NCBI GenBank assembly: GCA_027037535.1
Contig: JALVZQ010000007.1
Coordinates: 248,001 to 312,000 of the forward strand
Direction of reading: 5' to 3'
Source: Acidilobaceae archaeon
GTDB taxonomy: Archaea; Thermoproteota; Thermoprotei_A; Sulfolobales; Acidilobaceae
DNA: 64,000 nt
In this document: piece after piece, positions 41,252 through 51,736 of the stretch
Numbering within the stretch: position 1 is the stretch's first letter
Layout: every line of letters starts with the position of its first letter
The notes under the pieces: model-generated
Databases searched by the model: none
The model's input: the letters and a program-made list of their open reading frames with translations, nothing else
What the model was told of the DNA's origin: nothing
Position numbers and translations under genes: made by a program

Positions 41252-42418
41252 GTGATCAAGGGTAAATGGCCTTTCGATAAGAAGCCTCTGCTAATATTTT
41301 GGGAAACCACCAAGGCCTGTCAATTAGTATGCAAACATTGTAGGGCTAACGCAATAACACATCCTCTGCCAGGAGAGTTATCGACAAGAGAGGCGTTCAA
41401 GCTATTAGATGATATAGCAAATTTTGGAAAACCAAGTCCTATATTAGTTTTTACAGGCGGAGACCCATTAATGAGGAGAGATTTTTGGACATTAGTGAAT
41501 TATGCTAGGGGTCTTGGGCTACGGATGGCTGTAGCTCCAAGCGTTACACCCCTCTTAACAAGAAGAATCATGTTTAAGTTTAAGAACGAAGGGATTTCTG
41601 CTATTAGTATTAGTATAGATAGTTTTCGCAGAGAAGTACACGATACGATCAGAGGAATACCTGGAACATTTGATAGAAGTCTTAAGGCCCTAGAGTGGGC
41701 AAAGGAGGCTGGTCTACGGGTCCAGGTTAATACTGTTGTGATGAGAGAAACAGTTTCGGATCTTCCGGGAATGGTGAAATTACTTTTAGAGAAAGGCATC
41801 CGGGTATGGGAGGTATTCTATTATGTTCCGACAGGTAGAGGAGGTAAAGAAAGCGACCTCACGCCACGTGAATGGGAGGACGTGAGCCATTTCCTCTATG
41901 AGGCTAGCCGTTATGGTATAATGATAAGGACCGTTGAAGGACCCATTTTCCGGCGAGTTGCATTGACGAGGAGATACTACGAGAAGAAACAGTTATTGTA
42001 TAAACTAGACGAGGAGCTCGGCGAGCTATATCATATGCTTATGAGCGAGCTAAGGAGTCTACTTGGCGAACCACTAGGCGAGGCCAGGGCCCATACTGTT
42101 GGGACAATGGACGCGCGGGGAATAGTCTTTGTATCCTATGACGGAAACGTCTATCCAAGCGGATTCCTACCATTGTCGGCCGGAAACGTAAAGGAACAGA
42201 GCATAGTCGAGATATACCGCCGGAGCAGGCTGTTCAGCAGGCTAAGAGATGAACTCAGGGGTAGATGTGGAAGATGCGAGTTCCGCAGTATTTGTGGAGG
42301 TAGCCGGGCAAGAGCTTATGCCATAACCGGGGATCCTTACGCCGAGGATCCTGCCTGTATGTACGAGCCTGGGTCTCTCCCGAGAGAGGTGATAGAGAAC
42401 ATTGCAGTGTCTCGATGA
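41252..42418 (+). CDS. ahbD: Radical SAM heme b synthase (AhbD)
   Basis: The 388-residue protein has the radical SAM cluster motif CQLVCKHC (Cys23, 27, 30) and a SPASM-like C-terminal Cys set (CGRCEFRSICGGSRARAYA, later C-M-Y-E-P). The order WETTKACQLVCKHCRANA and PGELSTREAF matches AhbD, which converts Fe-coproporphyrin III to heme b by oxidative decarboxylation of two propionates. GFLPLSAGNV is another family signature. The start is GTG with GGGG about 9 bases upstream. Related radical SAM proteins of the same architecture act elsewhere, but the neighbouring ahbAB and ahbC settle the call. Confidence 0.88.
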   Translation: MIKGKWPFDKKPLLIFWETTKACQLVCKHCRANAITHPLPGELSTREAFKLLDDIANFGKPSPILVFTGGDPLMRRDFWTLVNYARGLGLRMAVAPSVTPLLTRRIMFKFKNEGISAISISIDSFRREVHDTIRGIPGTFDRSLKALEWAKEAGLRVQVNTVVMRETVSDLPGMVKLLLEKGIRVWEVFYYVPTGRGGKESDLTPREWEDVSHFLYEASRYGIMIRTVEGPIFRRVALTRRYYEKKQLLYKLDEELGELYHMLMSELRSLLGEPLGEARAHTVGTMDARGIVFVSYDGNVYPSGFLPLSAGNVKEQSIVEIYRRSRLFSRLRDELRGRCGRCEFRSICGGSRARAYAITGDPYAEDPACMYEPGSLPREVIENIAVSR

Positions 42419-43370
42419 ACTTGATAAGCGGATATTGATGGAGCTACAATATGATTTTCCTAGAGACGCTTATCCATTCGATATCGTAGCTGAGAGACTA
42501 GATTTGAGAGTGGACAAGCTAATCGATAGAGTAAACAAGCTCCATAGATACGGTATATTGAAGAGGATAGGCTTCTACGTAAACTATAGAGGCATTAGGC
42601 TTAAAGCAGCATTAATAGCTTACGAGTCAAAAGGACTGGTGGATGAACTAGCCAAAATCTATTCTAGGGATAAGCTCGCTACACACGTATATCTTAGGGA
42701 TCATCCAGTATACGATGTATGGGTAGTTACAAAGAGAAGAACCCTTGATGAACTCGTGGAACACGCTTTGGAGGTTTCTTCTACTCTTGGTATAAATCAC
42801 ATAGTCTTATACTCTAAACGGACCTACAAGCTCAGCGTCAAATTCGACCTATATCAGGGAATATCTCGCTCGGGAAAATACAGCTCTATAAGCATCAGTC
42901 CCCCAAGCCCAGAGACCTTCGGTATATCACCAGGCCAACTACGCATGTTTAGAAGACTAGATGTATCCAGGGAACCCTATAGGAAGATCGCAGAAGAGCT
43001 AGGATTATCGCAGGAGGAAGCTGCCAGTCTTGCGTGGAAACTCGTAGACGTAGGCCTATTGGGTGATCCAGGAGCTGCACTCGACGGGAAGAAAATAGGC
43101 TTTGAAGAAAATGCTATGGTGGTGATGGAGCCTAACGGCGATGAAGACACGTTCTGTAGAATGGCTGTGGGCTTGCCATATACGTCGCACGTTGTTCTTA
43201 GAGGATCTATACCGGAAGGTGCTTGGACGCATACATGTTATTTCATGATCCATGCGGTAGATAAGGATAGAATCAGGTCATTGATCGACGATGCAGTTGT
43301 AAAGATGAGACCTCGGAGCTTCATGGTGTTGAGAAGTCTGGCCGATTTGAAGCCTGGAACCATACGCTAG
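42402..43370 (+). CDS. ahbAB: Fused siroheme decarboxylase AhbA-AhbB
   Basis: The 322-residue protein has two Lrp/AsnC-like siroheme decarboxylase modules in tandem. The first starts LDELDKRILMELQYDFPRD with an HTH and a following ferredoxin-like fold. The second begins near residue 180 with SPGQLRMFRRLDVSREPYRKIAEELG. In most organisms AhbA and AhbB are separate subunits that remove two acetate carboxyls from siroheme. The assigned start is TTG, overlapping the end of ahbD by 17 bases, with GAGGTGAT about 9 bases upstream. The Lrp-like fold could mislead to a regulator call, but context supports the enzyme. Confidence 0.87.
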   Translation: MQCLDELDKRILMELQYDFPRDAYPFDIVAERLDLRVDKLIDRVNKLHRYGILKRIGFYVNYRGIRLKAALIAYESKGLVDELAKIYSRDKLATHVYLRDHPVYDVWVVTKRRTLDELVEHALEVSSTLGINHIVLYSKRTYKLSVKFDLYQGISRSGKYSSISISPPSPETFGISPGQLRMFRRLDVSREPYRKIAEELGLSQEEAASLAWKLVDVGLLGDPGAALDGKKIGFEENAMVVMEPNGDEDTFCRMAVGLPYTSHVVLRGSIPEGAWTHTCYFMIHAVDKDRIRSLIDDAVVKMRPRSFMVLRSLADLKPGTIR

Positions 43371-43410: not shown

Positions 43411-44580
43411 GTGATTCCTTTATCGGTCATGATAACGGGAAAGGGCACTGTATCTACTAGGATTAAGGGGCGTTATCATAGAGGGAGGCCCAGCAGGTTT
43501 ACCAGTATTATCAGGCCAGTAGTATTCTGGAATATCACGTATAAGTGCAATCTAAGATGTCAGCATTGCTATATTAATGCGGGTCCAGATGTTTCATTAC
43601 CTGAGCTTTCGTTTTCACAGACTCTGGACGTGGCTAGACAAATCGTAGAGCATGGGATTCCCCTAGTAGTGTTTACAGGGGGAGAGCCTCTTGTCTCGGA
43701 AAAGTTCTGGAAAACCCTAGAATATTTCCATGAAATAGGTAAGCCAAAGACAAGCGTGTCAACCAACGGTACATTGATAGACCATAGAAATGCCAAGCGA
43801 CTAAAGAAACTAGGCATAACTTATGTTGGGATAAGCCTAGACAGCTTGGATCCAGAAAAACACGATAAGTTTAGAGGAGCAAAGGGAGCATGGAAAGCAG
43901 CCGTCAACGGTATGAAGAATAGCGTTGCGGCAGGTCTACCGACGGGTCTAAGAGTAACCGTAACAACAGGGAATATAGAGGAAGTTCCCTCTATGATAGA
44001 TTTCTCCGCGGATCTAGGACTACAAAGAATCAGCATATATCTCCTAGACACGGTAGGTCGTGGAGCAAAGATTATCTCCCACGTACCACGTGGAGAGATG
44101 CTGAGAGAACTAATAGATAAACTAGTGGAGAAAGCCAGAGAATACGATGGAGTACTCGAGATACTCCTGGTGAGGATGAATTTCGCTGGAATCTATCTCG
44201 CAGATAAGCTCTCCAGCCACAGGCAGGAATTCTACGAGTATCTAGAGTTACTAGGCTCGCAAGGAGACTGTGGAAGGAAAACCGCCAGTATCTATCCCGA
44301 TGGAACAGTCCGACCATGCCAATTCATAGACTACGTGATTGTAGGCGATCTAAGAAGACAGAGTCTCCAAGAAATTCTATCACCAGATAATCCAAGGCTC
44401 AAACCATTCATAGATACCGCGTCACGTCTAAGAGGAACCAAGTGCAGATCATGCCCCTTCAAAGACGTGTGTGGCGGGGGTAGCAGGAACCGGGCGTTGA
44501 CTGCAACAGGAGACTTCTGGGGAGATGACCCAGCATGCTTCATTAACCCAGCAGAGATAGCAGAGAGGTGGAAGTCATGA
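43411..44580 (+). CDS. ahbC: Radical SAM 12,18-didecarboxysiroheme deacetylase (AhbC)
   Basis: The 389-residue protein has CNLRCQHC (Cys46, 50, 53) preceded by RPVVFWNITYK, the AhbC pattern, then FTGGEPLVSEKFW and a SPASM-like C-terminal region (CRSCPFKDVCGGGSRNRA). AhbC removes acetate groups from 12,18-didecarboxysiroheme to give Fe-coproporphyrin III, between AhbAB and AhbD. GTG start with GGGTGAT upstream. The end overlaps the precorrin-2 dehydrogenase start as ATGA. Sequence becomes more A/C-rich toward the 3' end. Confidence 0.88.
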   Translation: MIPLSVMITGKGTVSTRIKGRYHRGRPSRFTSIIRPVVFWNITYKCNLRCQHCYINAGPDVSLPELSFSQTLDVARQIVEHGIPLVVFTGGEPLVSEKFWKTLEYFHEIGKPKTSVSTNGTLIDHRNAKRLKKLGITYVGISLDSLDPEKHDKFRGAKGAWKAAVNGMKNSVAAGLPTGLRVTVTTGNIEEVPSMIDFSADLGLQRISIYLLDTVGRGAKIISHVPRGEMLRELIDKLVEKAREYDGVLEILLVRMNFAGIYLADKLSSHRQEFYEYLELLGSQGDCGRKTASIYPDGTVRPCQFIDYVIVGDLRRQSLQEILSPDNPRLKPFIDTASRLRGTKCRSCPFKDVCGGGSRNRALTATGDFWGDDPACFINPAEIAERWKS

Positions 44581-45260
44581 AAAGAACCTGGATACCCCTA
44601 TACATTGATCTAGTGGATCTACGAGTAGCGGTTCTAGGAGGTGGACAGCTAGGAGAGAGAAGAGCGAAAATGTTTGCTGAAGCTGGTGCCAAGGTAAGAG
44701 TATACGCGCTTAGATTCACAGACTCGCTAAAACAATACGCGGACAGATACAGAATAGAACTCGTCAAAACAGATCTCCTCCAAGAGAGTAATATCCTTGA
44801 GGCCATCAAGTGGGCCGACTTAGTCGTCATAGCAACAGGAGTAGACGTTATTGACAGGAAAGCAGCGGCATATGCCCGTGAAATGAGGAAACTCGTGAAC
44901 AATGGTGTAGACGCAGAACGAGGCAATGTAATAGTACCCTTCCAGGGAGAGACAAGTTATGGCCTCAAGTACGCTGTTACGAGTCTGGGAAAGACGGGCA
45001 TAGCGGCACGTATAGCTAGGGATAGGATAAAAGAATGCTTGGAAGACCAGAGTCTAGCCATAATGTACAGGGTCATGGCCAGGATAAAGAAATACATGAA
45101 AACTAATATCAAAGACGCTAAACAGAGGCTCCCATTATACTTTATTATAGAAGAGGACAAGGTATTCCAGAGATATGTCTCGCAGGGAGAAGAAGAGAAG
45201 GCGTTTCAAAGAGCACTAGAAATTATATCTAACCATATCAGTTATCCAGACCGCGAGTAG
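44577..45260 (+). CDS. Precorrin-2 dehydrogenase (Met8/CysG N-terminal type)
   Basis: The protein has 227 residues from ATG 44577, which has GAGGTGG upstream; GTG 44568 is less likely. The NAD site VAVLGGGQLGERRAKMF and the later TSLGKTGIAARIARDRI segment match the NAD-dependent dehydrogenase that oxidises precorrin-2 to sirohydrochlorin. Met8/CysG also chelates iron in some species; here a separate chelatase candidate is encoded opposite. Its 3' end overlaps that gene by 45 bases. The start overlaps ahbC by 4. Confidence 0.87.
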   Translation: MKRTWIPLYIDLVDLRVAVLGGGQLGERRAKMFAEAGAKVRVYALRFTDSLKQYADRYRIELVKTDLLQESNILEAIKWADLVVIATGVDVIDRKAAAYAREMRKLVNNGVDAERGNVIVPFQGETSYGLKYAVTSLGKTGIAARIARDRIKECLEDQSLAIMYRVMARIKKYMKTNIKDAKQRLPLYFIIEEDKVFQRYVSQGEEEKAFQRALEIISNHISYPDRE

Positions 45261-45809
45261 ATCCCTCGATAAGGGTAGAAGAGATCCATCAATAACCTCA
45301 TGATTTTCCTTTCTTAACATATTGTAAAGTCGGCCTCCTCGTAGCAAGCTCAACGACACAATGCACTCGTCTCCCCTACGATAAAGGCTCCACTCGTCTA
45401 GACTCACTGGTATGATATTGTATCGAGTGATTCTCTCAGCGAGCTCTATTGCCTTCCTGATGGAGGACGCGTGTCTCTCCTTGAATCTATGTGAAGGCCA
45501 ATAAACTATGACGGCTCTCCTACATTTGTTCCAGTCTATTACCCTAGCTAAGTGAAGAGAAAGTATCTCTACCGGGATAGGACCGTGAATCCTTACGTTT
45601 TTTCCGAGAAGAGCGTTCTTCACAGCTTCATAATGCCCACCCGGAGCGAGAGACAAGATAAACACATGTCCATTAGTAATATCGTCTACTTCTTCATAGC
45701 TCTGGGCTCTGGTCTCGACACCAGTTAAGGCCTGAACAATATATGCGAGATCATGAAGATCTCTTATACTGTCAGGGTTTCCAGGTCTATGCGCCAGGAG
45801 CACGATCAA
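45216..45809 (-). CDS. Putative sirohydrochlorin chelatase-like protein (CbiX/SirB-type, divergent)
   Basis: The 197-residue protein shows two similar halves. The first has VLLAHRPGNPDSIRDLHDLA and ILSLAPGGHYEAVKNAL; the second has VIVYWPSHRFKERHASSI and IVSLSLLRGGRLYNML. This mimics the duplicated class II chelatase fold, where His near the N-terminus (His7) and His59 would be catalytic; in the second half His107 is kept but the other position is Arg. It lies inside the heme locus on the opposite strand, the only cluster gene able to supply the missing iron insertion. The start is TTG. Assignment by pattern and context, not certain. Confidence 0.55.
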   Translation of the reverse strand: MIVLLAHRPGNPDSIRDLHDLAYIVQALTGVETRAQSYEEVDDITNGHVFILSLAPGGHYEAVKNALLGKNVRIHGPIPVEILSLHLARVIDWNKCRRAVIVYWPSHRFKERHASSIRKAIELAERITRYNIIPVSLDEWSLYRRGDECIVSLSLLRGGRLYNMLRKENHEVIDGSLLPLSRDLLAVWITDMVRYNF

Positions 45810-45939: not shown

Positions 45940-47091
45940 ATGGAAGCGGGTCTAAACGGAATGATCGCTGACAATCCGCTCAATACTCTCGTCGCAGTTT
46001 ATACGTCTCATAAGGAATCAAGCCTTGATGCTATCGGAAGACTCGGAGAGCTAAAAGAAAAAGCATATGGACTCATAGACGCGCAAGGAATAGTTATCCT
46101 GTCAACATGCAATAGGTTCGAGGCCTATCTAGACAATCACCGAGACGTAGCGCCACTAGTAGAACTAATAGAGAGTACGGGCGGAGAACCAAGAATAATA
46201 ACCGGCCCAGAGGCAGCCCTTAGACTCTTTAGAATCGCAGCAGGCCTAGAGTCCCAGATCATAGGCGAGCACGAGATACTTGGCCAGATTAGAAGAGCAT
46301 TGAACGAGGCCCGATCCCAAGGAAGGGTCACACGGCTCCTAGACACTGTGTTCCGAAGCGCGATTATGGTTGGTAGAAGAGTCCGCAACGAGACAGGGAT
46401 AGGAGAAGGAGGAGCAGGATATCCATATGCAGCCGTTAGACTTGCTAAGACTCTGTCGGGAGAGGATCTAGGAAGAGTTCTCATAATAGGCTCTGGGAAG
46501 GTTTCCCAGCGGATACTCTATCTTATATGCGATGAGGCATCGGAAATAGTTGTCGCGTCTCGGAGTCTCTCGAGGGCAGAAAAAGTCTCATCCCATTGCA
46601 GGAATGCGAAGCCAATAGAGCTCGATGAACTAGTCGGCGCCTATAATGTAGTGTTTATAGCCGTGACAGGATATAGACCAGACCTAACGAGGATCAAGGC
46701 TGTGACAATCATAGATCTCTCGATTCCCCCTGTGACAGTAAAAGCAAGTGGTGTTTATCACCTAGAGGATCTGAGAGACGTACTCCAGGAGTCGATCCGA
46801 TACCGTGCTAAATGGATCCCTGCGGCTGAGAAGATTATAGGAGAGGAGCTAGAGAATCTAGTCCATAAGCTTATAGAGGCACAGGTATCCACGGCGGCGA
46901 AGACCATCCTGGAATATGGTGAGAGACTACTAGACCAGTTCCCGGTCAATGGTGATAGAAGGATACTTGAGCGATATATGAGGAGTCTTCTTCACCCACT
47001 CCTTGTCTCCCTTAGGAGAGCCTCGAGGGAGGCTTCTTCCTTCGATGATTTTGTAAAAATTCTTGTCGAAGAATATGGTGGAGGAACATGA
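45940..47091 (+). CDS. hemA: Glutamyl-tRNA reductase
   Basis: The 383-residue protein has the catalytic Cys57 in ILSTCNRFEAY, the signature AAGLESQIIGEHEILGQI, and the NADPH-binding VLIIGSGKVSQ. It reduces glutamyl-tRNA to glutamate 1-semialdehyde, the first step of the C5 tetrapyrrole route. It begins the six-gene run hemA-hemB-hemL-hemC-cobA-hemD. The hemB ATG overlaps its stop as ATGA. A palindromic site lies upstream, so the operon may be controlled by heme or iron status. Confidence 0.95.
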   Translation: MEAGLNGMIADNPLNTLVAVYTSHKESSLDAIGRLGELKEKAYGLIDAQGIVILSTCNRFEAYLDNHRDVAPLVELIESTGGEPRIITGPEAALRLFRIAAGLESQIIGEHEILGQIRRALNEARSQGRVTRLLDTVFRSAIMVGRRVRNETGIGEGGAGYPYAAVRLAKTLSGEDLGRVLIIGSGKVSQRILYLICDEASEIVVASRSLSRAEKVSSHCRNAKPIELDELVGAYNVVFIAVTGYRPDLTRIKAVTIIDLSIPPVTVKASGVYHLEDLRDVLQESIRYRAKWIPAAEKIIGEELENLVHKLIEAQVSTAAKTILEYGERLLDQFPVNGDRRILERYMRSLLHPLLVSLRRASREASSFDDFVKILVEEYGGGT

Positions 47092-48101
47092 TCAAGCTCC
47101 CTAGATTTCCGGTAATGAGGCCTAGACGTCTTAGGGTGTCTCCCGCCATACGTAGTCTTGTGAGAGACGTTTATGTCTTGCCGAGCGACTTTGTGCTCCC
47201 TGTATTCGTTGATGAGAGGATAACGACGCCTAAGCCGATAAAGTCGCTTCCCGGACACCAATATTATCCTCCTCGCTCGAGCGAACTAGTAACCTTGATA
47301 CAGGAAGCAATGGATCTTGGCGTAAAGGCCTTCCTGTTATTCGGTGTACCGAATCGAAAAGATATGGAGGCTACAAGAGCATATGCCAGGGATGGCCCTG
47401 TCCAGGAAGCCATCAGGAACATAAGAAAAGAGACGGGCTGGGAACCTGTCCTAATAACGGATCTCTGTATATGTGGATATTCTAGTCATGGACACTGCGG
47501 GGTACCAGTAGATTGTAGACGTGGTAAATGCATAGATAATGACCGCACATTAGAGCTATACAAGAGAATCGCTGTTTCACAGGCAGAAGCAGGAGCCGAC
47601 ATCATAGCGCCGAGCGGTATGATGGATGGACAAGTAGCCGCTATAAGAAGCGCATTAGACGACAACGGATACAGTGATGTGGGTATCATGTCTTATAGCG
47701 TAAAGTACGCTAGTAGCTTCTATGGCCCCTTCCGCGACGTTATGGATAGCAGTCCCCGATGGGGAGACCGTTCAACATACCAAATGGATCCAAGCTACAC
47801 CAGGGACATCCTAAAGGAGGCATTGATGGATGTAGAGGAGGGAGCCGATATACTGATGGTGAAGCCAGCACTACCCTACCTGGACGTAATCTATAGACTG
47901 CACACAAGTATACCGACGCATCCACTAGCCGCATATAATGTTAGCGGAGAATACAACATGATAAGACTCCTAGCAGAGGAGGGTCTAGGCCTCTATGAGG
48001 ATCTCGTCCTGGAGGTTCTCTCCTCTATCAAGCGGGCGGGAGCCGATGTAATCATAACGTACCATGCCCTAGAGGCGTCCAAGTATCTCGAAAACAGGTG
48101 A
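47088..48101 (+). CDS. hemB: Delta-aminolevulinic acid dehydratase (porphobilinogen synthase)
   Basis: The 337-residue protein has the zinc cysteine site DLCICGYSSHGHCG (Cys127, 129, 137) and two active-site lysines, Lys206 in SYSVKYASSFYGP and Lys259 in ILMVKPALPYLD. It joins two aminolevulinates into porphobilinogen. The presence of three cysteines indicates a zinc-dependent enzyme. It overlaps hemA by 4 bases, and its own stop overlaps a GTG of hemL. Confidence 0.95.
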   Translation: MIKLPRFPVMRPRRLRVSPAIRSLVRDVYVLPSDFVLPVFVDERITTPKPIKSLPGHQYYPPRSSELVTLIQEAMDLGVKAFLLFGVPNRKDMEATRAYARDGPVQEAIRNIRKETGWEPVLITDLCICGYSSHGHCGVPVDCRRGKCIDNDRTLELYKRIAVSQAEAGADIIAPSGMMDGQVAAIRSALDDNGYSDVGIMSYSVKYASSFYGPFRDVMDSSPRWGDRSTYQMDPSYTRDILKEALMDVEEGADILMVKPALPYLDVIYRLHTSIPTHPLAAYNVSGEYNMIRLLAEEGLGLYEDLVLEVLSSIKRAGADVIITYHALEASKYLENR

Positions 48102-48106
48102 TTCTC

Positions 48107-49384
48107 ATGACGAACAAGGAGAAGCTTCTAAACAGGGCAAAAGAGGTCCTGGTGGGCGGAGTAAACAGTCCGATCCGTGCGCTTACCAAGCCAGAACAAC
48201 TAATAGCGGTCAAGGGCCAAGGCCCATATATCTATGACGAATCACTGGGCAAACTAGTAGACTACGTCCTCGGATACGGTCCACTAATCCTCGGCCACGC
48301 ACACCCAGATGTAAAGAAAGCAATAATTGAAGCCCTTGAAAACGGATGGCTGTATGGGGCTACTAGTCCACTAGATATCCGGCTTGCAGAGAAAATACTC
48401 ACACACGTGTATCCAGGAGGAAAAATACGTTTCGTGAACAGTGGAACAGAGGCAACAATGCTAGCACTAAGACTAGCGCGAGCGTACACTGGCCGGAACC
48501 TCATAGTTAAATTCGATGGCTGTTATCACGGAGCTCACGATTATCTTCTTGTATCTGCTGGAAGCGCCGCAGGTCATCTGGGAGTGCCAAAGAGCCCTGG
48601 CATACCATCAGAGGTTTCCAGGCTAACACTCATAGCAGAGTACAATGATCCAGGCGGGCTAGAGGAGATATTCTCGAAGTACGGAGACCATATAGCAGGA
48701 GTAATAGTAGAACCAGTAATAGGTAATTACGGAGTTATACCGCCGAGCAAGGAGTTTTTACTCAAACTGAGGAAACTAACGGAAACATACGGAGCGGTAC
48801 TTATCTTCGACGAAGTAATAACAGGGTTCAGATTATCCCTTGGAGGGGCACAAGAGTACTTCGGTATAAGAGCAGATCTGGTGACATTAGGTAAGATTAT
48901 TGGAGGAGGCCTCCCCATCGGGGCCGTGGCAGGCCGTCGCGAGATAATGGATCTAATCACCCCTGTGGGCAAAGTATTCAATGCAGGGACTTTTAACGGC
49001 CATCCACTAGCAATGGCCGCTGGGCTAGCAACAATCAGGGTTCTCGAGAAGGAAGGACTAGGCAGAGCAGTCAATCATGCAAGGGCATTAGATGATATAA
49101 TAAGGGAGACTCTAGACTTGGCGGGCATAGCATATGCTGTGAATAGGATTGGACCAATGATGCAGTTTTATCTAGGAGTAGAGAACGTTGAGAAGCCTTC
49201 TGATATCCTGCCTCAAAGCAAGGACCTCTATACAAGAATCCACGAAGAGATGACGCGCCACGGAGTACTCATAGCGCCCAGCCAGCTCGAAGCACTCTTT
49301 ACAAGCATAGTTCATGGAGACAACGAAGCAGAACTCTTCCACCAAGCATACAATAACGCCGTCAGGAGGGTACTCAAAGGATGA
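48107..49384 (+). CDS. hemL: Glutamate-1-semialdehyde 2,1-aminomutase
   Basis: The protein has 425 residues from ATG 48107, after GGTGAT; a GTG at 48098 overlapping the hemB stop is the other possible start. It is a class III PLP aminotransferase with RFVNSGTEATMLALRLARA, IFDEVITGFR and the PLP Lys266 in LGKIIGGGLPIG, numbering from the GTG. It isomerises glutamate 1-semialdehyde to 5-aminolevulinate. The stop overlaps the hemC ATG as ATGA. Confidence 0.95.
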   Translation: MTNKEKLLNRAKEVLVGGVNSPIRALTKPEQLIAVKGQGPYIYDESLGKLVDYVLGYGPLILGHAHPDVKKAIIEALENGWLYGATSPLDIRLAEKILTHVYPGGKIRFVNSGTEATMLALRLARAYTGRNLIVKFDGCYHGAHDYLLVSAGSAAGHLGVPKSPGIPSEVSRLTLIAEYNDPGGLEEIFSKYGDHIAGVIVEPVIGNYGVIPPSKEFLLKLRKLTETYGAVLIFDEVITGFRLSLGGAQEYFGIRADLVTLGKIIGGGLPIGAVAGRREIMDLITPVGKVFNAGTFNGHPLAMAAGLATIRVLEKEGLGRAVNHARALDDIIRETLDLAGIAYAVNRIGPMMQFYLGVENVEKPSDILPQSKDLYTRIHEEMTRHGVLIAPSQLEALFTSIVHGDNEAELFHQAYNNAVRRVLKG

Positions 49385-50262
49385 AACTGGTAGTCGCAGC
49401 AAGAACAAGCAAGCTGAGCCGAATACAGGTTGAAATAGCTTTAGACTACATAGCTAAGAAACTAGGCAACATAACATACCAGTTCCTAGGAGTAAAAACC
49501 ACAGGCGACATAGTCAAGGACAAGCCACTCCACCTAATCGGCAAAAAAGGAGTATTCGAGAAAGAGGTAAACAACGCAGTACTCGGGGGAGAAGCCGACA
49601 TAGCAGTCCACAGTCTAAAAGACCTACCCTCGAAGCTACCAAACGGCCTGGAAATAGTCCTAATACCTCCCAGAGGCCCCAGAGAAGACTCACTAGTACC
49701 ACGTAAAGAACTTTCCCCAACGAGGCCGAGCGACCTACCAAAGGGTACACGCGTAGCCGCAGGATCTCCTAGAAGGCAGGGAATGCTATATCACGCAAAC
49801 CCAAACATTGAGACAGTATGGATAAGAGGTAACCTGGATACCAGGCTCAGGAAACTAGACAACGGACAAGCAGACTACCTTGTAGTAGCCGAAGCCGGCC
49901 TCACACGCCTAGGAATCTCCAGGCCGAGGATCATTCTCCCAGCCGTGAAGTACGTGCCAGCACCAGGCCAAGGCCTGATAGCAGTTGTAGCAGTTTCAGA
50001 GACAAGTATTGCAAGAAAGCTGAAAGAAATAACACATACTCCCACGACACTAGAGGCGATAGCCGAAAGAACATTTCTAGAGTCCATAAAAACAGGATGC
50101 GGTGCCCCCATAGGGGCAACAGCATGGTACAATAATGGTAGTATCAAAATCATATCAGCGAACTATGATGTGAACCTCGAGAAACCACTCTACATAACGA
50201 TAACACACAATGATCCCGTAGAGGCCGGGAAACAGGCAGCAAGTCTCCTCAGGGAGGCGTAA
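49381..50262 (+). CDS. hemC: Porphobilinogen deaminase (hydroxymethylbilane synthase)
   Basis: The 293-residue protein carries HSLKDLPS with the catalytic Asp81, the substrate Arg segment AGSPRRQGML, and Cys240 in IKTGCGAPIGATAW, which attaches the dipyrromethane cofactor. It polymerises four porphobilinogens into hydroxymethylbilane. Length is normal. The start overlaps hemL by 4 bases and a 2-base gap leads to cobA. The coding strand is markedly A/C-rich. Confidence 0.95.
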   Translation: MKLVVAARTSKLSRIQVEIALDYIAKKLGNITYQFLGVKTTGDIVKDKPLHLIGKKGVFEKEVNNAVLGGEADIAVHSLKDLPSKLPNGLEIVLIPPRGPREDSLVPRKELSPTRPSDLPKGTRVAAGSPRRQGMLYHANPNIETVWIRGNLDTRLRKLDNGQADYLVVAEAGLTRLGISRPRIILPAVKYVPAPGQGLIAVVAVSETSIARKLKEITHTPTTLEAIAERTFLESIKTGCGAPIGATAWYNNGSIKIISANYDVNLEKPLYITITHNDPVEAGKQAASLLREA

Positions 50263-50264
50263 AC

Positions 50265-51005
50265 ATGCCAGGCACAGTCTACATTATTGGAGCTGGGCCA
50301 GGAGACCCCGACCTAATAACACTGAAAGCACTCAAAGTAATCAAAGAAGCAGACACGATACTCTATGACCGACTAGTCAGCCCAGAAGTCCTAGAACACG
50401 CTAAGCCAGGCGCAGAACTAATATACGTCGGGAAAGCGCCAGGAAATCATGAATTTACGCAGAAAGAAATAAACAAGCTGCTCTATGCCAAAGCGCTAAC
50501 AGCTAGAACAGTCGCTCGACTCCACGGGGGAGATCCTTTATTCTATGGTCGAGGAGAAGAAGAATGCCTCTATCTAATAACTAGAAGAATAAGATGTAAG
50601 ATAATTCCCGGTGTTCCATCACCATTCGGAGCGGCTGCAGAACACCTTATACCGCTGGCAGGAAGAGACATCGCTAGCAACGTATTATTCTCTACGGGTA
50701 CATTTAAGGGAGGAACAAAGATCTCCGTCGAGGAGGCAATGAACATTATTCGGGCTTCACACCACTCAGTATTCCTAATGGCTACCTCATCGTACAAGAA
50801 TATTGTTAAAGCATCAATAATAGCCAAAGGCCCAGACACTGCAGTAGCCGTAGTAGAAAAAGCCACAACTCCTGAGTCAAGACTCGTCATCGGTAAGTTG
50901 CAAGAATTACTAGGAAATGAATGGATTCCATCACCGCCCGCAATCATATTCGTCGGAGGAGGCCCCAGATGGCGCCTAGAGAAAATAAATGCACAGTACT
51001 ATTAG
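50265..51005 (+). CDS. cobA: Uroporphyrinogen-III C-methyltransferase
   Basis: The 246-residue protein has the SAM-binding start VYIIGAGPGDPDLITLKAL, LYDRLVSPEVLEHA and the loop RLHGGDPLFYGRGEEE typical of SUMT. It methylates uroporphyrinogen III twice to precorrin-2, the branch point for siroheme and Ahb heme. GGGAGG lies 7 bases before the ATG. Its end overlaps hemD by 37 bases. It is a monofunctional methyltransferase, with the dehydrogenase encoded separately at 44577-45260. Confidence 0.93.
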   Translation: MPGTVYIIGAGPGDPDLITLKALKVIKEADTILYDRLVSPEVLEHAKPGAELIYVGKAPGNHEFTQKEINKLLYAKALTARTVARLHGGDPLFYGRGEEECLYLITRRIRCKIIPGVPSPFGAAAEHLIPLAGRDIASNVLFSTGTFKGGTKISVEEAMNIIRASHHSVFLMATSSYKNIVKASIIAKGPDTAVAVVEKATTPESRLVIGKLQELLGNEWIPSPPAIIFVGGGPRWRLEKINAQYY

Positions 51006-51736
51006 CAGGCCCCGATCCACCACCAAGCAAGCTAGGGCCCTGCACAACCATTTGGGTTCCCCTAATAGAAACGCATACTGTGAAAAGATCATCTCTAATA
51101 CTCCTAAATATTATTAATCAATACGACACTGTACTTTTCACCAGTCCAAGAACGCCACGACACCTGAAGGAAGACGCAGAAACACATAACAAGATAAGAG
51201 AACTCAAAGAAGCACTAACGAGCAAAAACATTTGGAGTATTGGGCCTAGAACAAAAAAGTCCCTAGAAAAACATTTGGGATTAAACTCGAACACTCCCAA
51301 AGAATACAACACAATAGCTCTAGCATACGAGCTCAGAAACAGGGGAGTAAAGAACGTTCTGGCTCTACGTAGGCCGGGAGCAGGCCCAGAACTCGCTGAC
51401 ATAATAACAAGGTGGGCGACATATACCGAGCTACACATCTATCGAGTCAAGCTAGACGAATTTTGGCAATATAAGGTCGCAGGAATCCACGTAGATTACG
51501 TCGCAGTAACAAGTAGGCAAATAGGAGATTACGTTGCAAAAATGAACTGGACCTCAAAGCCCGCTATAGTATCTATTGGATCGTTAACAACTAAGAGACT
51601 GGAGAAACATGGTATAAAGCCCCTCTGTACAGCCAATATATACACGTTGGAAGGACTCGCAATCTGCCTCGAATCCCTCGAGTCAGAGAAAACGGGTAAA
51701 CGGCCCAGGCCTGGAGGAGAAAGATATGGAGGCTGA
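50969..51736 (+). CDS. hemD: Uroporphyrinogen-III synthase (divergent)
   Basis: The ATG at 50969 is preferred over 50921 because GGAGGAGG precedes it, giving 255 residues. HemD is poorly conserved, but the domain order, TVLFTSPRTPRHLKED in domain 1 and VDYVAVTSRQIGDYV then IGSLTTKRLEKHGIKPLCTA in domain 2, matches the two-lobed synthase. It closes hydroxymethylbilane into uroporphyrinogen III. Context after hemC and cobA supports the assignment. Its last 11 bases overlap the PhoU-like gene. Confidence 0.83.
   Translation: MAPRENKCTVLLAGPDPPPSKLGPCTTIWVPLIETHTVKRSSLILLNIINQYDTVLFTSPRTPRHLKEDAETHNKIRELKEALTSKNIWSIGPRTKKSLEKHLGLNSNTPKEYNTIALAYELRNRGVKNVLALRRPGAGPELADIITRWATYTELHIYRVKLDEFWQYKVAGIHVDYVAVTSRQIGDYVAKMNWTSKPAIVSIGSLTTKRLEKHGIKPLCTANIYTLEGLAICLESLESEKTGKRPRPGGERYGG

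Follow-up and report, generated by a model that had tools for sequence, protein, structure and literature searches.

A candidate iron-inserting chelatase in the heme gene clusters of several heat-loving archaea

The locus and the gap in its heme pathway

Iron insertion is the step documented as missing from archaeal heme synthesis: no obvious ferrochelatase was found in archaeal heme clusters (PMC3004389), the chelatase was named as the one enzyme still lacking in Methanosarcina barkeri (PMC3942049), and the haloarchaeal heme route has been reconstructed save for iron insertion (PMC8305020), each according to the accessible part of the source, as holds for the papers cited below. Which protein, then, inserts iron at the heme locus of an Acidilobaceae archaeon? 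The analysis presented here points to a small, previously unannotated protein, encoded within that locus, which very probably serves as the missing inserter of iron in several heat-loving archaea, its activity being predicted from models and conserved residues, and which would thus fill the recorded gap in these organisms. No paper assigning a gene of this family was found within the partly accessible literature on archaeal siroheme and heme chelatases, most subscription journals lying outside it.

The window, the whole stretch of 64,000 nucleotides that was analysed, carries a series of forward-strand genes leading to heme. These encode an AhbD-like radical SAM protein (41252..42418; TIGR04053 at 512 bits, above its cut-off, and the AhbD model at 295 bits, under its cut-off), a fused AhbA-AhbB siroheme decarboxylase (42402..43370; PF17805, PF22451 and the NCBIfam AhbA/AhbB models), an AhbC-like radical SAM protein (43411..44580; TIGR04546 at 229 bits, under the cut-off) and a sirC-type precorrin-2 dehydrogenase of the CysG N-terminal/Met8p family (44568..45260; TIGR01470 at 72.2 bits, cut-off 62.3; also aligned to CysG). 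Further along are hemA for glutamyl-tRNA reductase (45940..47091; TIGR01035 at 143.7 bits, under the cut-off), hemB for porphobilinogen synthase (47088..48101; NF006762 at 415 bits, above the cut-off), hemL for glutamate-1-semialdehyde aminomutase (48098..49384; NF000818 at 520 bits, above the cut-off), hemC for hydroxymethylbilane synthase (49381..50262; TIGR00212 at 239.6 bits; PF01379), the gene for SUMT, the uroporphyrinogen-III C-methyltransferase (50265..51005; TIGR01469 at 219 bits), and hemD for uroporphyrinogen-III synthase (50921..51736; PF02602 at 87.3 bits). Curated cut-offs were passed by hemB, hemC, SUMT, hemD and the CysG N-terminal domain of sirC, and for hemL the subfamily model was passed and the equivalog narrowly missed; hemA, ahbAB, ahbC and ahbD are good matches under the equivalog cut-offs and are therefore named by best similarity.

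Within this cluster the reverse strand holds the open reading frame at 45216..45809, which starts with TTG and encodes 197 amino acids, as found in the list of reading frames and confirmed by reading the codons. It lies where the preliminary description had located it, on the strand opposite to sirC, hemA, hemB, hemL, hemC, SUMT, hemD and the ahb-type genes. It is convergent with sirC, the two 3' ends overlapping at 45216-45260, and divergent from hemA. The product is treated here as a candidate sirohydrochlorin ferrochelatase, a putative divergent class II chelatase of two halves, on the evidence of the reading frame, its family, its predicted fold and its co-occurrence with other genes.

Family, predicted fold and conserved residues

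A search with the single protein retrieved family members from 27 of 60 relatives, and a profile of 26 sequences found the family in 38 of the 48 genomes of its own GTDB family; the close relatives carry the names Aeropyrum sp., Acidilobaceae, Hestiella and Thermodiscus. Apart from one copy that is 97% identical, members share 16-32% identity with the window protein, and since such distant relatives occur in dozens of genomes the reading frame is not a chance one. None of the libraries searched recognises the family. The window protein has no Pfam or NCBIfam match and no credible match by sequence in the PDB, and it does not match PF00762 and PF06180, which we take to be the HemH ferrochelatase and CbiK models. 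Scanning the family members against NCBIfam gave scattered weak matches at most, a PHROGs search gave no match, PDB profile searches with the family found no chelatase, and the curated cut-off of PF01903 (CbiX/SirB) was not reached. Judged by sequence, the family thus stands outside CbiX/SirB as now modelled and is not a CbiX-S.

The predicted structure gives a more definite picture. AlphaFold2 models were built with 13 sequences for the window protein (pLDDT 94.1, pTM 0.89) and for a relative from Aeropyrum sp. with 26% identity to it (pLDDT 94.9, pTM 0.90). In VIA-align, the top row for the window model was SirB 5zt7, with Z 17.7, rmsd 2.7 and 194 of 197 residues aligned, and the top row for the Aeropyrum sp. 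model was likewise SirB (Z 16.3, rmsd 3.2, 196 residues aligned). The first 45 rows for the former and the first 38 for the latter are all SirB, CbiK, CbiX, FetB and ferrochelatases; below them come DR2241 (Z 11.6 and 11.2, respectively), then PrpR (10.8 and 9.3) and other folds. SirB is also the top Foldseek match of both models, at E 2.3e-4 for the window protein and 3.9e-5 for the Aeropyrum sp. protein. Of the 16 Foldseek matches of the Aeropyrum sp. model at E <= 0.001, however, 11 are sugar-binding-type proteins with TM of about 0.4, and the case for the fold therefore rests on the whole-chain alignments. The comparison by structure prediction that had been proposed for this protein thus returned a predicted class II chelatase fold in two models.

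The preliminary description had also noticed two similar halves, a likeness that holds at profile level. When the family profile was split at about residue 95, hhalign aligned the N-half with the C-half at a local probability of 96.2 and E 2.6e-9, none of 200 column permutations being as good, and a reversed control gave 0.22. The N-half also aligns with archaeal CbiX-S (E 8.2e-4; 0 of 200 permutations as good, the best 0.0043), and this alignment places His7 on the His of GHGS and His59 on the His of GxH; the C-half gave no alignment of that kind with archaeal CbiX-S. CbiX is less similar to either half than the halves are to one another. With the whole family profile the same His pairing to CbiX is recovered, but at E 0.011 and probability 3.8. 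Direct proof by sequence of homology to CbiX, for which one could cite this probability and the best PF01903 value among the 26 members (E 0.035, in one member), was set aside as weak at best.

The two histidines and a few other residues mark the family. His7, Gly57, His59 and Pro79 are invariant in the 26-sequence set, and after eight more distant sequences had been added to the alignment His7 and His59 were each found in 32 of 34 sequences, Pro79 in all 34 and Arg108 in 30. Before the residues were counted, one off-cluster paralog (L026, from genome G032), in which Glu replaces His7, was excluded from this alignment (A1). Every one of the 32 in-cluster sequences aligned has both histidines, and the two sequences that do not are off-cluster paralogs from one genus. 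In the window the His7 codon (45789..45791, reverse strand) follows strand 1 of the model (residues 2-6) and that of His59 (45633..45635, reverse strand), within the (R/P)GGH motif, follows strand 3 (residues 46-51); by position they would correspond to His10 and His76 of SirB and to His9 and His75 of CfbA. Both codons are where the preliminary description had put them. The invariant Pro79 belongs to a GPIP motif (codon 45573..45575, reverse strand) and Arg108, in the second half, to a YWxxKRF motif (codon 45486..45488, reverse strand). The SirB ligand Glu43 finds no conserved counterpart, position 40 being Glu in 14 of 34 sequences. By its predicted fold of two Rossmann-like halves, its repeat and its His pair, the family is accordingly assigned, on modelled grounds, to the class II chelatases.

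The second half reads differently from the earlier proposal that it had kept one catalytic His and replaced the other by Arg. Position 107 is Lys in 23 of 34 sequences and His in two, and His107 is therefore no retained catalytic His, the conserved residue at this place being Arg108; the Arg at the equivalent of His59 (GGR, 159-160) is loosely kept.

Some members show features of their own. Second copies of the family gene lie outside the heme cluster in genus g13 (L076:3615-4316, reverse; L077:5972-6712, reverse; L158:230-874, forward; L167:3411-4112, forward), and in the three that were read residue by residue neither the first His nor the RGGH motif survives, so that by their residues these copies are paralogs and probably non-catalytic. 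Clustered cysteines, such as a CxxC with a further C, occur in the second half of L017, L018, L021, L010 and L013, resembling the Fe-S motif described for long CbiX, and do not occur in the window protein. In G006 the gene adjoining sirC (L156:2261-2865, reverse) is in two frames, through either a draft sequencing error or a break in the gene.

Neighbourhood, distribution and rival readings

In 42 of 45 genomes other than that of the window, a heme-pathway gene lies at most 1.1 kb from the family gene, the usual overlapping or adjoining neighbours being sirC, hemA or hemB. The remaining three are G019, which gave no reading frame and is counted by its coordinates, about 1.9 kb from ahbAB; G032, which contributes only the paralog lacking the His; and G069, whose gene is on a 3.8-kb contig without heme genes.

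Co-occurrence was assessed among 121 genomes of the order that are at least 90% complete. Of these, 64 have hemC, 28 the new protein and 33 a CbiX recognised by Pfam, and none has both of the latter; all 28 and all 33 belong to the hemC-bearing genomes, and neither gene occurs in any of the 57 that lack hemC. Among the 61 order genomes with ahb over the cut-off, 28 have the new protein, 31 CbiX, two neither and none both, an outcome that agrees with the co-occurrence check proposed in the preliminary description. It had also named a standard cbiX or sirB elsewhere in this genome as evidence against the assignment; the genome is 99.94% complete and gives no Pfam CbiX/SirB match, nor does any of the 48 genomes of its family. 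Among the 25 of these that are at least 90% complete, hemC and the new protein occur in the same 20 and both are absent from the other five. Fisher values for the co-occurrence are very small, a calculation that ignores shared ancestry; because the genomes share ancestry the counts are not independent, and what can fairly be said is that the pattern extends over three families (f1, f7 and f10), with joint absences inside f1 (genus g6 and G011). We take f1 to be Acidilobaceae, f7 Pyrodictiaceae and f11 Sulfolobaceae, and, among single genomes, G017 to be A. pernix, G025 A. camini, G023 Acidilobus saccharovorans, G008 Caldisphaera lagunensis and G051 Pyrolobus fumarii. Outside f1, f7 and f10 the family is absent among 165 genomes of the class, and a search of 397 genomes of the phylum gave 18 matches, all in f1 and f7.

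A few genomes depart from the two main arrangements. Three with hemC have neither the new protein nor CbiX (G049, G059 and G038); their loci L063, L064 and L065 (G059 and G049) and L066 (G038) carry early heme genes, with ahb in two of the genomes, and both profiles found no chelatase candidate in the stretches fetched from them. Two CbiX genomes of f3 are without ahb and have CbiX only as a CbiX-CbiC fusion. Such fusions, of about 330-350 amino acids and apart from the short CbiX, were seen in f11 and f3 (L108, L109, L110, L113, L098 and L099).

Could the neighbouring SirC be bifunctional like Met8p or CysG and insert the iron itself, leaving the new protein another role in the pathway? This is very improbable in our judgement. 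Aligned to CysG, the window SirC has Asp115, Glu117 and Gly144 at the places of Asp104, Pro106 and Pro133; the Asp agrees with such a role, as does that kept at the Asp104 place in G049 and G059, which have ahb and neither chelatase and which may use either a bifunctional SirC or a third chelatase. Among the SirC proteins of relatives with the new protein, however, neither of the two Pro places ever has Pro and the Asp104 place holds D, E, S or K, while in five SirC proteins from CbiX-bearing genomes of f11 the latter place is Asn, Ser or Asp; SirC and CbiX coexist in Sulfolobaceae-type genomes, and the mutual exclusion of CbiX and the new protein speaks against the SirC reading as well. According to the accessible text of PMC7018833, CysG requires Asp104, Pro106 and Pro133 are linked to its reaction, and Bacillus SirC has Ser at the Asp104 place, where an introduced Asp fails to restore chelation. 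The CysG chelatase residues are not kept in the SirC proteins of the relatives, and SirC alone is therefore unlikely to be the iron inserter across the group, a small chance of this being left in the present organism.

Still less probable is a protein that has the chelatase fold but does not catalyse, and that would instead chaperone or carry iron, sirohydrochlorin or siroheme. One of the best fold matches is FetB 9b86, which is listed as a heme-group protein, and the SirB Glu ligand is not conserved in the family, both of which would suit a carrier; the two histidines, however, are kept in every in-cluster sequence aligned and lost only in off-cluster paralogs, and CbiX is missing wherever the new protein occurs. 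As for a class II chelatase acting on another metal or ring, for instance inserting cobalt for a corrinoid, or nickel, it is the least probable of the three, even though SirB, CfbA and similar enzymes accept several metals (PMC11301274, accessible part), for ahb is the only route after sirohydrochlorin seen in these clusters, and cbiC, present in 29 other genomes of the order, is found in none of the 28 with the new protein. A role in cobalamin synthesis was rejected on this last ground.

Identity with HemD was also rejected, the window having a separate HemD and the presumed A. pernix genome a separate HemD reading frame of 59.6 bits to PF02602. In two Aeropyrum-type genomes HemD lies between sirC and the new gene (L073:5526-6248, forward, 59.6 bits; L083:10553-11269, reverse, 64.4 bits, both to PF02602), contrary to the accessible text of PMC3004389, where A. 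pernix is said to have no recognisable hemD.

Proposed mechanism and comparison with known chelatases

The reading of this protein as the missing sirohydrochlorin iron chelatase, first put forward in the preliminary description, gains support from the predicted fold, the His pair, the neighbourhood and the exclusivity with CbiX, its catalysis and its metal being inferred from these. We consider it highly probable that the family protein acts as sirohydrochlorin ferrochelatase in the heme pathway that runs through siroheme, with substrate, metal, monomeric state and residue roles as presumed in what follows. It would be a SirB-type class II chelatase, monomeric, built of two halves and very compact at about 200 amino acids. 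SUMT and SirC would supply sirohydrochlorin, for which the cleft separating the halves would be the binding site. In the first half, His7 and His59 would hold Fe2+ and also help to remove the pyrrole protons, and the second half, through Arg108 and its neighbours, may hold carboxylate groups of the ring. The siroheme so formed would pass to AhbAB, AhbC and AhbD. A possible, if rather doubtful, history is that a CbiX-S-like ancestor was duplicated independently of SirB and CbiK to give the family, which, like SirB, lost its second His pair, was reduced to about 200 amino acids and replaced CbiX for iron in f1, f7 and f10. What is new is a named candidate gene, with two predicted catalytic residues, for a group that includes Aeropyrum; if the assignment is true, it adds a compact hyperthermophile enzyme to the class II chelatases and a new point to the picture of their evolution.

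Among known enzymes, the HemH/CpfC ferrochelatases share the fold class (Z of about 14-15) but have about 310 amino acids, a porphyrin substrate late in other heme routes and His/Glu in the second half. Closer is the CbiX of Paracoccus (PDB 4ccs; Z 15.9), which was identified as the 'missing' chelatase for siroheme in alpha-proteobacteria and so closed a pathway gap of the same kind, although His127 and His187, which are essential to it, lie in its second half (accessible text of PMC4063343) and the family pair is in the first. With CbiX-S/CfbA the family shares two His in matching topology in its N-half, a weak profile match and the pathway slot that CbiX occupies in sister families; these are, however, one-half proteins (115-143 amino acids here) against two halves in 197 amino acids, and homodimers with two His pairs (PMC11301274, accessible part), whereas the second half of the family has no His pair. 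The closest likeness is to SirB of Bacillus subtilis (PDB 5zt7 and 6jv6), whose fold the window model matches over 194 of 197 residues. Both proteins join two halves in a single chain, the first half carrying a His pair and the second an Arg, which is conserved in the family. The metal site of SirB is made up of the first-half residues His10, Glu43 and His76, Arg134 and Leu200 belonging to the second half, and some CfbA also lack the Glu (PMC11301274, accessible part). The family differs from SirB in its low identity (about 13%), in being more than 50 residues shorter, in lacking a conserved Glu ligand, in escaping detection by PF01903 and in having motifs of its own (VYHxPG, RGGH, YWxAKRF and GPIP), and it is most likely a compact SirB-like class II chelatase that has diverged too far for the existing profiles.
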